NCBI RefSeq assembly: GCF_006715785.1
Contig: NZ_VFNX01000001.1
Span: 2,308,501-2,372,500, forward strand
DNA: 64,000 nt
Direction of reading: 5' to 3'
DNA from: Streptomyces puniciscabiei
Lineage (GTDB): Bacteria; Actinomycetota; Actinomycetes; Streptomycetales; Streptomycetaceae
Program-made: the position numbers and the translations under genes
Shown: one piece after another, positions 58,799 through 64,000 of the stretch
Layout: each line of letters starts with the position of its first letter
Position numbering within the stretch: the stretch's first letter is position 1
The notes under the pieces: generated by a model
What the model was told of the DNA's origin: nothing
Databases searched by the model: none
Seen by the model: only the letters and a program-made list of their open reading frames with translations

Positions 58799-59575
58799 AT
58801 GGCGAGCACGTGGACGACCGCGTCTGCACGGGACGACGGCGGTCTGGACGACCGGGTGCCCTTCCTCGCCCGGCTGGAAACCGAGGACCGGGAGGTGCTG
58901 CTCGCCCTCGGCCGGGAGCTGGCCTTCACCGCCCGCACGGTGCTGATCCACCAGCACGAGCCGTCCTCCCACGTGCTCTTTCTCGTGCAGGGCTGGACCA
59001 AGGTGACCGCGGCGGCCGCCAACGGCTATGAGGCGCTGCTCGCGCTGCGCGGCCCCGGTGACATCGTCGGCGAGTCGGCGGCGCTGACCGGGCGGCCGCG
59101 CTCGGCCACCGTGACCGCGCTGGAGCCGGTGCGCTCGCTGGCCGTGGAGCACGAGCGGTTCCGGGACTTCCTGCGCCGCTCCCCCGCCGCCTCCTTCGCC
59201 CTGCTGGGCCTCACCGCCGACCGCACCCGCGCGGCCGACCGGCGCCGGCTGGAGTTCGCCTCCATGAACGTGCGCGAGCGGCTCGCCGTCCTGCTGCTGG
59301 ACCTGGCCCGCACGCACGGCCGCCGCACCGAGGAGGGCATCGAGGTCTCCGTCCCCCTGAGCAAACAGGAGCTGGCGGGCTCGGTGGGGGCCTCACGCGA
59401 GATGGTCCAGCGCCTGCTGAAGGAGCTGCGCGACAAACACGCGGTCACCACGGGCCGCCGGGCCCTGCTCATCCACCGCCCCGACGTTCTGCGCCGAATA
59501 GCTGCCGCAACCTCCGCCTCCACCCCGGGCACCCCGTGGATCCCGTCTCCGCCGGGGCCGCCGGACGGGGAGTGA
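58799..59575 (+). CDS. Crp/Fnr-family transcriptional regulator
   Basis: 258 residues. A cyclic-nucleotide-binding domain (residues 20-130) carries the phosphate-binding cassette GESAALTGRPRSATVTA with Glu92 and Arg101-Ser102 retained, so it may bind a cyclic nucleotide. A winged HTH follows at 188-210 (SKQELAGSVGASREMVQRLL). A Pro-rich tail ends it. GGGGGGCC precedes the ATG. It is the first gene after the str operon, divergent from rpsL, and lies upstream of a cyclase-like gene across a repeat-filled gap. Confidence 0.88.
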   Translation: MASTWTTASARDDGGLDDRVPFLARLETEDREVLLALGRELAFTARTVLIHQHEPSSHVLFLVQGWTKVTAAAANGYEALLALRGPGDIVGESAALTGRPRSATVTALEPVRSLAVEHERFRDFLRRSPAASFALLGLTADRTRAADRRRLEFASMNVRERLAVLLLDLARTHGRRTEEGIEVSVPLSKQELAGSVGASREMVQRLLKELRDKHAVTTGRRALLIHRPDVLRRIAAATSASTPGTPWIPSPPGPPDGE

Positions 59576-60708
59576 CGGGGCGAGGGCGCCGGGGGCGTGG
59601 GGGGACGGCCGGCATCGGGGCCGCAGAGGATGCGGGCGGGCCTCGAGGCCGTACGGGGGAACGGCCGGCGCCAGGACCAGGTGACGAGGGGCGCCGGGGC
59701 GTGGAAGGCCTGCTGGCATCGGGGCCGGAGAGGATGACGGCGGGCATCGAGGCCATACGGGGGAACGGCCGGCACCAGGACCGTAGAAGGCGCTGGCAGG
59801 CACCGAGACCGCACAGCGGGACGGCCGGCACCAGAACCGTAAAAGGTGACGACCGGCACCGAGACCGCGCAGTGGGAACGGCTCGCACCAGGACCAGGTG
59901 ACGAGGGGCGTCGGGGCGTGGAAGGCCTGCTGGCATCGGGGCCGGAGAGGATGACGGCCGGCACCAGGACCGTAGAAGGCGCTGGCAGGCACCGAGACCG
60001 CACAGCGGGACGGCCGGCACCAGAACCGTAAAAGGTGACGACCGGCACCGAGACCGCGCAGTGGGAACGGCTCGCACCAGGACCAGGTGACGAGGGGCGT
60101 CGGGGCGTGGAAGGCCTGCTGGCATCGGGGCCGGAGAGGATGACGGCCGGCACCGAGACCGCACAAAGGGACGGCCGGCGCCAGGGCCGGCGGGAGCCGG
60201 CATCGGTGTCGCCGGAGGTGACAAAGGTCATCGGGGCGCTGGGAGGGTGACCACCGCAGGACCGTGACCGCAGTCACCCGGGCCGGCGGGAGGGCGACAG
60301 CGTTCGTCGGGGCGGCCTCGAGAGGGTGACAACCGCGGGACGGTGCCCGCGCCCACCAGGTCTGCAGGGGCGACACCGCTGACTGCCGCAGGGGCGACGG
60401 TCACACAGTCACCGGCCGCCAGATGGGTGACAGGCGCGGCGCCGGCCGCTCGCGGGCACCGGGGCCGCCCCGGGGAAGGACCGCAGCCGGCAGTCACCAG
60501 GGCCGTCCGTGCAGCGGCGCCGGCCATCACTGCTACCCCCCGTCCCGAAGAGTGACGCCGGCCATCACGGCCACTCGAACGGTGACCTCGGCCCCCGGGG
60601 TCACTCTGTGCACACGGTCACACTTCGACTGCGTCATCCGCCCTCACGGCCGCCGCCGAAGCGCAGCCACTCTGCTGCCCTGCACGGCGAACCCTCCGAG
60701 AGGCGACG
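59576..60708. other. Repeat-filled gap without a credible gene
   Basis: About 1.1 kb. The first 0.6 kb is the nested repeat at 59640-60200. The rest is looser sequence rich in GGTGAC and GGGCGAC boxes that look like decayed copies of the same units. Long frames on the minus strand exist only because the repeat length is a multiple of three. Confidence 0.75.
59640..60200. repeat. Nested minisatellite, about 28-bp units in a 189-bp higher-order repeat
   Basis: The box GTGACGAGGGGCG begins at 59681, 59898 and 60087, giving blocks of 217 and 189 bp and a partial third. The 189-bp blocks are nearly identical. Inside are variants of a roughly 28-bp unit, for example CCGGCACCGAGACCGCACAG and CCGGCACCAGAACCGTAAAA, differing at a few positions. 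Near-identity of blocks implies recent duplication. Confidence 0.85.
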
Positions 60709-61578
60709 ATGACCGACCCCGTGAGCCGTACGATCCTGCTGCTGGACATCGAGAGGTTCAGCGACCGGGACGACGTGGAGCAGGCCTATCTGCGGCGCAT
60801 GCTCTACGACATCACCGACCGCACCCTGGAACGCGCCGGCATCGACGAGACCCAGCGGTTGCGCGCCGACCGCGGGGACGCGGTCCTGGCACTCATCGAT
60901 GCGAACGCTTCGGTCACGACGCTGCTGCGGGTCCTGCTCAAGGAGGTTCCCGCCGAGCTGCACGCCGTCAACCGCATGGCGTCCCGCTCCGCCCAGATCC
61001 GGCTGCGCGGTGTCGTCGCCACCGGCTATGTCGCCGTGGACGAACTCGACGGCTGGGTCGGCTCCGATCTCAACCACGCCTGCCGCCTGCTCGACGCCGG
61101 TCTGCTGCGCGACGCCCTGCGCGAGCGGTCCGACGACTTCGCGCTGTGCGTCTCGGACGCCCTGTACGCGGGCGTGGTGCGCCACGACCACCCCGGCATT
61201 CCCGCGGCCGAGTTCCGCCCGGTGACGGTGGGCAGCAAGAACGGCCCGCTGAAGGCCTGGCTGCACGGGCCGCTGCCCGCCGGCCAGGACCGGCACGAGG
61301 ACCACCGTGACACGGGGGAGGGGGAGGTGCCGGGCGGTTCGGGGGACCGCTCGGCACCGCGCACACCCGCCGCCCCCGCCGGAGACGGCCCGGCGCCGGC
61401 CGGATCGGGGGGAGCCCCGGCGCCGGGCCCGGTCATCAACGTCCACGGCGGCAGCTTCACCGGCGGGCTGATCGGCGGCAGCCAGTTCGGCGGCATCAGC
61501 GGCGGCCACTTCACCGGCGACGTCGTCCTCGGCGAACCCGGCAAGGACCGCGGGCGCGGGCGGGGTGAGGGCGCGTGA
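60709..61578 (+). CDS. Class III nucleotidyl-cyclase-like protein with C-terminal amyloid-type motif
   Basis: 289 residues. A cyclase homology domain spans residues 1 to about 185. The two metal Asp residues are present (Asp13 in ILLLDIERFS and Asp57 in ADRGDAVLALI), followed by GVVATGYVAV and GWVGSDLNHACRLLDAG, which match the later strands and helix of such domains. Substrate-specificity residues are not clear. A Pro/Gly/Ala linker (191-240) leads to a glycine-rich motif at 247-275 ending GGISGGHFTGDVVLG. The same motif opens the next protein. GAGAGGCGACG precedes the ATG. The stop overlaps the next start by four bases. I infer an effector or signal-producing partner. Confidence 0.8.
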   Translation: MTDPVSRTILLLDIERFSDRDDVEQAYLRRMLYDITDRTLERAGIDETQRLRADRGDAVLALIDANASVTTLLRVLLKEVPAELHAVNRMASRSAQIRLRGVVATGYVAVDELDGWVGSDLNHACRLLDAGLLRDALRERSDDFALCVSDALYAGVVRHDHPGIPAAEFRPVTVGSKNGPLKAWLHGPLPAGQDRHEDHRDTGEGEVPGGSGDRSAPRTPAAPAGDGPAPAGSGGAPAPGPVINVHGGSFTGGLIGGSQFGGISGGHFTGDVVLGEPGKDRGRGRGEGA

Positions 61579-63770
61579 GCACACCCGAGGCGCAGGCCCC
61601 GCCCCACCCGGCGGCCGCGGCGGGGGCCGAGCCGGCCGCGGACGAGCCCAGACCGGCCGAAGGCGGCGCGGACCCGGGCGAGTCCGAGGAGCGGGACCAG
61701 CCACAGACCGCCTGGTCGGCACGGCGCGACCTGGTCGACCACAGCCCCCGCACCATGAACGTCGGCGCCCGCGCCCGCTTCAGCGGCGGTCTGCTCGGCG
61801 GCGACCAGCACGGCGGCATCAGCGGCGGCCACTTCACCGGCGACGTCTTCCTGGGCGGCAGGACGGAGGTCTACCAGCTCGCGGCGCCCGCTCCGGTCCT
61901 GGCCTCCGGAGAGGTACCGCAGGCCACCCTGGAGGAGCTGGAGCGCGGTTTCGCGGCCGACGAGCAGCTGATGTGCCGGCTGCTGGCCCGGCTGCGCGAT
62001 GAGCGCGTTCTGGTGCTGTCGGGCGGGCGCTTCACCGGCCGGCGCACGGCCGCCCTGATGCTGCTGCACCGCCTCGGCGCCCTGCCCGTGCGCACTCTGG
62101 TCCGCGACACCGGCGCGAGCGGCCTCGCCGAACAGTTCGGCGGCGAGCAGCAGGCGCGCGGTCACGTCTTGTGCGACCTGGCCCCCCGCCGGGACGAGCC
62201 CCTGCGCTGGACCCATCTGCTGGCCGCCCGCGACCGGCTCGCCGAACGGGACGCCTATCTCGTCGTCACGCTCGACCCGAACGCGGCCCTGGACGACGTC
62301 ACCGCCGAGGAGTGGCGTCCGCCGGCCGCCGCCGACGTCCTGACCGCCCAGCTGCGCGCCCGCACCGATGAGGAGACGGCCCGGAAACTGCTCGCACTGC
62401 CGCAGGTGGCGGACTTCCTCGGGCGCAGCCACCAGCCGCGCGAAGCTGCCGCGTTCGCCAGGCTGCTCGCCCGATACGCGACCGGAGAGGCCAACGAGGA
62501 CGCGGTCGGCCGGTTCTCCCTGGTGTCGCTGGAGAACCAGGTTCAGGAGTGGTTCGAAGAGGACGAGAGCCATCTCCACCTGCGTGACAAGGCGTTTCTC
62601 ATCGCACTCGCCGCCTTCGACGGCGGTTCGTATGCGCTCACCGCGGAGCTGAGTGATCTGCTCTACCGCTTCCTGCAGGAGACCCAGGACCCCGCGCGCG
62701 TCCCCGAGGTCCCCGTCTTCGGCACCCATGTCGGCAAGCGGCTGCAGCTCGCCCGCGCGGAGATGTACGTGGACGACGAGCGCACCCAGTGGGGGCCGGT
62801 CACCCAGCAGAAGGCCAGGTTCCGCGACGAACGGACCTGGACCGTGCTGCTGCGCGAGGTGTGGACCGGCCACCCCTCTGCCCGGCCCGCACTGATCCGC
62901 TGGCTGCGCCGGCTCGCCGACGACGGCCGCCCACTGGTGCGCACCCGGGCCGCGTCCGCCGTCTCCGTCCTGGCCCACACCGACCTGCCGTCGGCGATGG
63001 CGCTGGTCATCGAACCATGGGCGACCTCCAAGACGTTCCGTCAGCGACTCGCGGCCGTCAACGCCCTCACCCTCGCTCACCTCGCCGGCATGCCCAACGT
63101 CCCGCGCATCCTCGACGCCTGGTGCCAGGGCGACGACCGGCAGCTGCGCTGGGCGGCCGTACGGGCGTATGCGCTGATCGGGCCCGAGCGTCCGGAACAG
63201 GCCCTGGCCGCGCTCCGCAGCGCTGGGCGCCGTCTGTACTACGAGGGCGAGGGCCATCCGGACAGCCTCGACCACGAGATGGCGCGCGAGCTGACCGAGG
63301 CCGTGGAGCTGCTGCTGCTCTCCTCCGCCGCCGATCAGGTCCTGACCGAGTTGTGCGCCCATCTCAACGACGACTACGCCGTGCGTGACCTGACACTCGG
63401 TGGCTTCGTACGGGCCTGCGGGCACACCGAGGACGACGAGCCGTACGGCACCCCGCTGATCCTCGCCTGGTACGCCCGGGCGTCGGCCGAAGGCGGGACG
63501 GCTGCCCGCGAGATCCCGTTCCTGTGGCGTGCCGTGCTGTCCGACAAGGAATCGACGGTCGTCGCACTCGAAGCGCTGCGCACCTGGGTGCTCATCGCCG
63601 ATCGGTCACCGACCGCCGAGTGGGCCCTGGCCGCCTTGCTGCCCACTCTCGGCACCACCCGAGCGGAGTGCCAACGCCTGAGCCATCTGCTGCGCACCAT
63701 GCGAGGCGAGGACGGCGCTCCCCCGCCGCCGGTCGCGGCCCGGCTGCTGGCCACGCTTCCCACCCACTGA
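61575..63770 (+). CDS. STAND-like NTPase with N-terminal amyloid-type motif and helical repeats
   Basis: 731 residues from a GTG overlapping the previous stop. An acidic, disordered N-terminus (1-60) is followed by the glycine-rich motif at 69-94 (GGDQHGGISGGHFTGDVFLG). A linker (100-140) leads to a P-loop-like block VLVLSGGRFTGRRTAALMLL (147-166), in which Arg replaces the usual Walker A Lys. HVLCDLAP and AYLVVTLDPN suggest the Walker B region and a later strand. From about residue 330 to the end it is a run of helical hairpins of HEAT type (VRTRAASAVSVLAHTDLPSA; QRLAAVNALTLAHLAGMPNV; RWAAVRAYALIGPERPEQAL). The layout is that of an NLR-like sensor. Confidence 0.78.
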   Translation: MSTPEAQAPPHPAAAAGAEPAADEPRPAEGGADPGESEERDQPQTAWSARRDLVDHSPRTMNVGARARFSGGLLGGDQHGGISGGHFTGDVFLGGRTEVYQLAAPAPVLASGEVPQATLEELERGFAADEQLMCRLLARLRDERVLVLSGGRFTGRRTAALMLLHRLGALPVRTLVRDTGASGLAEQFGGEQQARGHVLCDLAPRRDEPLRWTHLLAARDRLAERDAYLVVTLDPNAALDDVTAEEWRPPAAADVLTAQLRARTDEETARKLLALPQVADFLGRSHQPREAAAFARLLARYATGEANEDAVGRFSLVSLENQVQEWFEEDESHLHLRDKAFLIALAAFDGGSYALTAELSDLLYRFLQETQDPARVPEVPVFGTHVGKRLQLARAEMYVDDERTQWGPVTQQKARFRDERTWTVLLREVWTGHPSARPALIRWLRRLADDGRPLVRTRAASAVSVLAHTDLPSAMALVIEPWATSKTFRQRLAAVNALTLAHLAGMPNVPRILDAWCQGDDRQLRWAAVRAYALIGPERPEQALAALRSAGRRLYYEGEGHPDSLDHEMARELTEAVELLLLSSAADQVLTELCAHLNDDYAVRDLTLGGFVRACGHTEDDEPYGTPLILAWYARASAEGGTAAREIPFLWRAVLSDKESTVVALEALRTWVLIADRSPTAEWALAALLPTLGTTRAECQRLSHLLRTMRGEDGAPPPPVAARLLATLPTH

Positions 63771-63791: not shown

Positions 63792-64000
63792 ATGCCCTCC
63801 TTCCGGCAACCCGAGTGGCAGCAGCCCGCCGACCGGCACACCCAGCTGGTCGACCCGGTGCTCACCGTGCGGCAGCTGTCCCGCTTCGAGTTCAACTTCC
63901 GCTCCCTGGTCCGTATCGACCACGCACTCGTCTTCTCCACCCCCAAGGGTTCCTACGAGGCCTATCTGCCGCCGCAGCGGCCGACCCGCGCCGAGATCAC
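63792..64000 (+). CDS. Third gene of the cyclase/NTPase operon (cut by window end)
   Basis: Starts at ATG 63792, 21 bases after the NTPase stop, and stays open to the window end (69 full codons). It begins MPSFRQPEWQQPADRHTQLV and contains VRQLSRFEFNFRSLVRIDHA. No domain can be recognised from this part. Its spacing and direction make it a likely component of the same system. Confidence 0.7.
   Translation, partial: MPSFRQPEWQQPADRHTQLVDPVLTVRQLSRFEFNFRSLVRIDHALVFSTPKGSYEAYLPPQRPTRAEI

Follow-up and report, generated by a model that had tools for sequence, protein, structure and literature searches.

The window analysed here is a 64,000-nucleotide stretch of the 9.1 Mb genome of Streptomyces puniciscabiei, and its elements of interest are two adjoining genes for a nucleotidyl cyclase-fold protein and an NLR-like NTPase, which carry one copy each of a glycine-rich motif. 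Gene 1 (60709-61578, forward strand) encodes a class III nucleotidyl cyclase-fold protein of 289 residues, with a proline-rich linker and the first motif copy at its C-terminus (residues 250-275; 61456-61533, forward strand). It overlaps by 4 nucleotides with gene 2 (61575-63770, forward strand), which encodes a STAND (AAA+) NTPase-like protein of 731 residues with HEAT repeats, in which the second copy (residues 69-94; 61779-61856, forward strand) lies N-terminal to the STAND domain. The two copies are identical at 21 of 26 positions, and the layout put forward by an earlier sequence-only reading is thus confirmed. Among the best 120 matches listed for each of the two genes, the named proteins belong to Streptomyces.

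For comparative purposes 81 loci were assembled, comprising this genome's own (L005, a fetched stretch reaching past the end of the window) and the best 80 of 111 confirmed loci, from named Streptomyces genomes, 61 of these 80 having full flanks. They yielded 76 cyclase/STAND pairs after L015, L029, L038 and L078 (fragment without cyclase) and L065 (masked) were dropped. The class III cyclase-like domain that the sequence-only reading had assigned to the first protein was recovered through structure prediction, by which the fold was recognised; by sequence alone, nothing of use came from profiles of Pfam, NCBIfam, PADLOC or PDB, and no match of note was found among PDB sequences. PycC chains of the PDB were not among the 50 matches listed for the cyclase, which is no evidence against PycC kinship. 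The metal-binding aspartates D13 and D57 as well as N122 and R126 are conserved in 76 of the 76 proteins; as in Pycsar, this is a class III cyclase with intact catalytic residues, and the enzyme is probably active. The position which we take to be that of the purine-specifying lysine is alanine in 70 of the 76 cyclases, and Arg55, two residues ahead of D57, is invariant across the 76 loci. The equivalent place in PycC enzymes is K104 or Q144 (PMC11224242), and the Ala/Arg55 pattern is a hint, suggestive only, of a cyclic CMP or cyclic UMP product.

In the AlphaFold2 model of the STAND protein, an AAA+ domain spans residues 110-330 (61902-62564, forward strand) and VIA-align places HEAT repeats at about 330-731. 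The latter, annotated as HEAT-like helical repeats at residues 331-731 (62565-63767, forward strand), are presumed to be the sensor part. At E values up to 0.1, Pfam nSTAND3 was found in 11 of 38 homologues and HEAT_2 in 16 of 38, the protein itself giving neither. By alignment its Walker A sequence, GGRFTGRRT (residues 150-158; 62022-62048, forward strand), is degenerate, with arginine in place of lysine.

The motif is confined to these two proteins. A 12-row profile, by which 150 of 246 genome candidates were scored, is significant at two places only in the own genome, namely both copies described here (9.3e-12 and 4.1e-9), the next match being weaker at 0.23. Across 31 genomes, the own included, strong matches occur in three, each with exactly two in adjacent genes, and the best match elsewhere reaches 0.004. 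The motif is recognisable on both sides in all 76 pairs, with conserved spacing of glycine and hydrophobic residues between variable flanking linkers. At the DNA level, the cyclase motif (61446-61519) contains a weak 24-nucleotide tandem repeat of 2.7 copies with 68% match, suggesting that the motif may have grown from an 8-residue unit.

The two copies also vary in concert. Local motif scores of own pairs average 113 against 82 for other pairings across the 76 pairs, and the own-pair sum of 8585 is larger than that of all 20,000 permutations (mean 6285, standard deviation 122.5, maximum 6812). With core-gene distance regressed out in a partial Mantel test, the similarities of cyclase motifs and STAND motifs remain correlated at r 0.57 (permutation standard deviation 0.076; maximum 0.33 of 5000), and beyond a core distance of 0.2 other pairings fall below the own score in 87 to 94% of cases. 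Nine motif forms, defined post hoc after the sequences had been seen, are concordant between cyclase and STAND protein in 76 of 76 pairs, which is a descriptive count; these forms play no part in the score permutation or in the partial Mantel test. On the core tree, a minimum of 11 form changes is required for each protein (about 31 with shuffled labels), which implies 11 or more joint switches. Cyclase and STAND protein alike show forms c, e and f at two distinct positions of the tree each, and even highly diverged forms are still matched between the two. Such switching together is as homotypic coupling predicts, and we regard a homotypic contact of the motifs as likely.

A layout of this kind has been described for bacterial amyloid signalling (BASS) pairs, in which an NLR-like protein carries an N-terminal motif and its neighbour the same motif at the C-terminus (PMC7889193). 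Motif kinship was assessed with peptides given in PMC8086366, each compared with its own shuffles on 38 of the 152 motif copies. The single fungal sigma peptide beats 299 of its 300 shuffles (1/300 as good), the one BASS3-like archaeal peptide is intermediate (16/300) and the one BASS3 (RHIM-like) peptide performs no better than chance rearrangement (143/300). As far as that one BASS3 peptide tells, the RHIM/PP origin suspected from the sequence is unsupported. The published GDQN motif pattern (PMC12261475) also shares GDQNxVS with forms found here: GDQ[NH]x[VI][ST] is found in 35 of the 76 cyclases and in 25 of the 76 STAND proteins, with 21 pairs having it in either partner alike, and occurs twice in 1.89 million background residues, in L015 and L065, where the frame position indicates that the matches are probably cut-off pieces of cyclase/STAND genes. 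Pfam NACHT_sigma was unlisted for 12 motif peptides at E values up to 10, a range in which HMMER filters drop most matches above 0.1. By sequence, the motif is similar to the sigma and GDQN amyloid motifs of fungi and not to the BASS3 peptide, a likeness that is possibly convergent.

The gene pair sits in a block of six genes on one strand, in the order CRP-type cyclic nucleotide monophosphate (cNMP)-binding regulator, cyclase, STAND-HEAT, Band_7-like, PycTM and M48 peptidase. In the 61 full-length loci, the CRP, cyclase, STAND, Band_7-like and M48 genes are each present 61 times, PycTM and thereby all six genes 57 times, and the order and strand of the genes present are constant in 61/61; rpsL and rpoC bracket the block in 56. 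The first gene (58799-59575, forward strand), identified by Pfam, synteny and PADLOC, lies ahead of the cyclase gene, in the same orientation, in all 61 and encodes a CRP/FNR-family regulator with a cyclic-nucleotide-binding domain (Pfam cNMP_binding 1.1e-19, HTH_Crp_2 2.5e-15), which also matches the nucleotide-binding part of the PADLOC PycTIR model at 9.2e-14. A gap of 1133 bp separates it from the cyclase gene, more than at any other of the 73 loci compared (median 165 bp), and this unusually expanded pre-cyclase region holds, at 59584-60161, a tandem array with 2.1 copies of a 189-bp unit (99% match) inside a wider array. Downstream, the Band_7/SPFH-like gene starts at 63792 and runs on the forward strand beyond the window end at 64000 (full gene L005:5792-7462), encoding a protein with a coiled coil and a proline-rich tail; its label is weak, as Pfam at E up to 0.1 assigns it to 6 of the 23 homologues, with 9.3e-5 as the best value, and not to the own protein, and comparison with PDB sequences found nothing. 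The PycTM gene (L005:7459-8004, forward strand; Pfam PF18967 3.1e-23, PADLOC PycTM 7e-15) overlaps it by 4 nucleotides in 52 of 60 loci, and the M48 peptidase gene (L005:8036-9310, forward strand; Pfam Peptidase_M48 1.4e-19) follows, both beyond the window. Another gene of this genome also passes the Pfam cut-off for the PycTM family (G000:C1:3311852-3312100; L087/L130), by eye with a GntR-like regulator nearby; within its 16 kb, STAND and Band_7 matches are absent and the one cyclase-profile match is marginal and at the far edge.

The block extends beyond the genus. A cyclase match was obtained in 40 of 61 family genomes, with E 1e-40 or better in 11 of them (own included), and in all nine foreign loci fetched from that group CRP, cyclase and STAND genes stand together, with the motif again at both places, in other genera as well; the two copies of L100 agree at 33 of 36 positions. 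Within the genus, an orthologous STAND gene (E below 1e-100) was detected in 21 of 121 genomes, and a further 12 have just a distant one. None of these 33 positive genomes holds both kinds; an overlap of no more than about 2 would be expected, and nothing is concluded from it. The 12 distant, paralogous loci, surveyed within 9.5 to 11.5 kb, contain CRP in 12, cyclase in nine, Band_7-like in nine and PycTM in six, and a different Gly/Asn-rich motif family is found at the cyclase end and the STAND start. In the three without cyclase (L116, L117 and L119) the CRP gene is followed by the STAND gene, cyclase, Band_7-like and PycTM genes were not found, and by eye the STAND N-terminus is without a recognisable motif. 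These are natural reduced versions of the module; they resemble each other, and the co-absence of cyclase and motif may be a single event.

It was presumed at first that the cyclase is itself the effector of the pair. It is probably not the final one: the operon holds PycTM and a cNMP-binding CRP, and the cyclase therefore looks like a messenger generator between receptor and effectors, so that the operon looks like a complete alarm circuit. We propose an NLR-gated, Pycsar-like second-messenger module, to which we give an even chance. The trigger would be a signal sensed by the STAND-HEAT protein through its HEAT repeats, upon which it would oligomerise. Its N-terminal motif would then contact the C-terminal motif of the cyclase homotypically, in cross-beta or beta-arch fashion and in the direction from receptor to enzyme, and the NLR-like protein would thereby recruit and cluster the cyclase until the cyclase domains come together. 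In PycC-type class III cyclases the active sites lie at a head-to-tail dimer interface (PMC11224242), and clustering would therefore switch catalysis on. The cyclic nucleotide produced would bind PycTM, with the membrane perturbed, and the CRP-type regulator, with transcription altered; that PycTM or CRP responds to the cyclase product is rather likely. The Band_7-like protein could act as a membrane scaffold and the M48 peptidase as an accessory. The computations show the operon, the folds, the conserved catalytic residues, the confinement of the motif, its coordinated switching and the co-absence with the cyclase; the contact and its direction, the nucleotide, the trigger and the PycTM and CRP responses are inferred from these.

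The components have counterparts in several known systems. BASS1-10 pairs (PMC7889193, PMC8086366) are likewise found in filamentous bacteria and combine a STAND N-terminal motif with an adjacent or overlapping gene bearing the motif C-terminally; they differ in that their partner is BELL, CHAT or TIR rather than a nucleotidyl cyclase fold, in that the motif here is nearer to fungal sigma/GDQN than to the BASS3 peptide, and in the Walker A arginine. The proposal of an amyloid-signalling-type pair stands for its layout (STAND with HEAT, N-terminal motif, adjacent C-terminal copy) and for the joint switching of the copies, while BASS membership is withheld because the effector differs. Pycsar (PycC with PycTM or PycTIR; PMC11224242) also unites a class III cyclase and PycTM in one operon, with a cNMP-binding domain nearby; the present block has an additional STAND-HEAT gene and motif tail for its input, further contains CRP, Band_7-like and M48 genes, and its cyclase matches no PADLOC model. 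VMAP/iSTAND ternary systems with effector-associated domains (EADs; PMC7159879) resemble the block in coupling a signalling enzyme, cNMP cyclases included, to a core NTPase by duplicated adaptors, and in their inactive STAND, Band_7 domains and occurrence in multicellular bacteria, and differ in having a small globular domain where a short Gly-rich motif is seen here, with PycTM as effector. No MoxR or vWA gene is among the six genes of the block, genes further out having had no Pfam scan, and judged by these six the block does not belong to the MoxR-vWA systems. Fungal NLR/effector pairs with a sigma or GDQN motif (PMC8086366 Table 2; PMC12261475) share the motif core, for instance GGTQ...[VI]SGGNFxGxV and GDQ[NH]x[VI][ST]; they come from fungi, the motif partner in the GDQN case is a SesA-domain protein, a cyclase is absent, and the similarity may be convergent. 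In coupling logic the block is close to BASS pairs and to the EAD principle (PMC7159879), in output to Pycsar. What would be new is BASS-like coupling joined to Pycsar-like output in one module; a literature search found no description of this operon in titles and abstract openings, with subscription papers mostly outside its coverage.

Several observations weigh against the proposed module and are gathered here. Arginine takes the place of the Walker A lysine in all 38 aligned STAND proteins and at all 76 loci, and ATP-driven switching is therefore doubtful. Neither the cyclase (at E 1 or below) nor the STAND protein has a PADLOC match. PycTM is missing in four of the 61 full loci; in these (L067, L070, L083 and L084) the gene was undetected, cyclase, STAND, Band_7-like and M48 genes are kept with the motif on both sides, and another effector may replace it. 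The motif has a low predicted local distance difference test score (pLDDT) in both monomer models, which decides nothing on the amyloid state. As for covariation, own pairs are no better than others below a core distance of 0.15. Among ten further loci (L097-L106), three of which repeat loci of the 76, only five have the own pair as the top score of their row, as do four of the seven new ones; L096, L099, L105 and L106 carry the same cyclase tails as L083, L072, L027 and L046, respectively, and do not count as independent. The own-pair excess is not significant for six raw paralogous pairs, and seven automatically cut ones reach 246 of 20,000, two of these belonging to the orthologous group and the L118 window having missed its motif. 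Codon identity at identical motif residues is 78.7% within genomes (1280/1626) against 69.7% between them (permutation standard deviation 1.0%), core-gene codon use predicts only 58.0 against 57.6%, so that codon bias does not account for the excess, and in the own genome both copies have a 37-nucleotide identical run in common; the match is therefore due in part to gene conversion or concerted evolution of another kind. Finally, the block occupies a fixed site between rpsL and rpoC and not a defence island, which suits a physiological role equally well and therefore calls for caution on immunity versus physiology.

The block may indeed be a physiological or developmental signalling cassette (stress, envelope, differentiation) rather than an antiphage or cell-death system, a prospect we rate as serious, somewhat short of even, which keeps the same mechanism and overlaps with the proposed module. 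The rpsL-rpoC site, the CRP-type transcription output, the two proteins without PADLOC match and the patchy presence at 21 of 121 genomes agree with it; against it, PycTM is a known membrane-disrupting immune effector (PMC11224242), and motif turnover and presence/absence variation suit conflict.

It is conceivable, though we lean against it, that the motif forms an amyloid-type polymer. The same circuit could run on an ordinary folded docking tag, a short beta-arch or beta-solenoid or an EAD-like coupling adaptor held in a stoichiometric complex and not a templated amyloid, which is plausible without being the expected outcome. The covariation and confinement data suit any homotypic contact. 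One of the 12 motif peptides, none of which has a Pfam domain over cut-off, gives a weak GLUG repeat match (0.086, below cut-off) that, like the weak 24-nucleotide periodicity of the motif DNA, suits a short beta-solenoid, and neighbouring genes likewise tend to carry mutually closest EAD copies (PMC7159879). Against a docking tag stand the resemblance to published fungal amyloid motifs and the nature of described EADs, which are small, mostly alpha-helical domains unlike this Gly-rich stretch (PMC7159879); duplication and coupling as in EADs are present here, with no fold in the monomer models.

Neutral concerted evolution, whereby repeats about 300 bp apart would be homogenised by gene conversion with no contact function, is improbable in spite of the codon excess and the 37-nucleotide run, since the motif persists on both sides in every pair although direct repeats are prone to deletion, its Gly/hydrophobic spacing is kept while linkers vary, diverged forms still match and no STAND motif is seen where the cyclase is absent. 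Gene conversion can be the route by which matching is maintained; alone, it does not explain that both copies are retained in all 76 pairs.

Returning to the NLR-gated module, a prion-like form of it is offered tentatively, in which a receptor-seeded cross-beta polymer would be templated on the cyclase tail, giving a digital, self-propagating assembly and an amplified cyclic-nucleotide signal, read by a pore-type effector and CRP, with lineage-specific matched motifs insulating each circuit.

Overall, if the module is as proposed, it would link NLR/amyloid signalosomes with Pycsar-type cyclic-nucleotide signalling, lines of bacterial immunity so far separate, and would suggest a switch-on route for a Pycsar-like cyclase. 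The natural series of matched motifs, with its joint switches, is a panel for what sets the specificity of homotypic or amyloid coupling, and the cassette sits in the genetically tractable Streptomyces.

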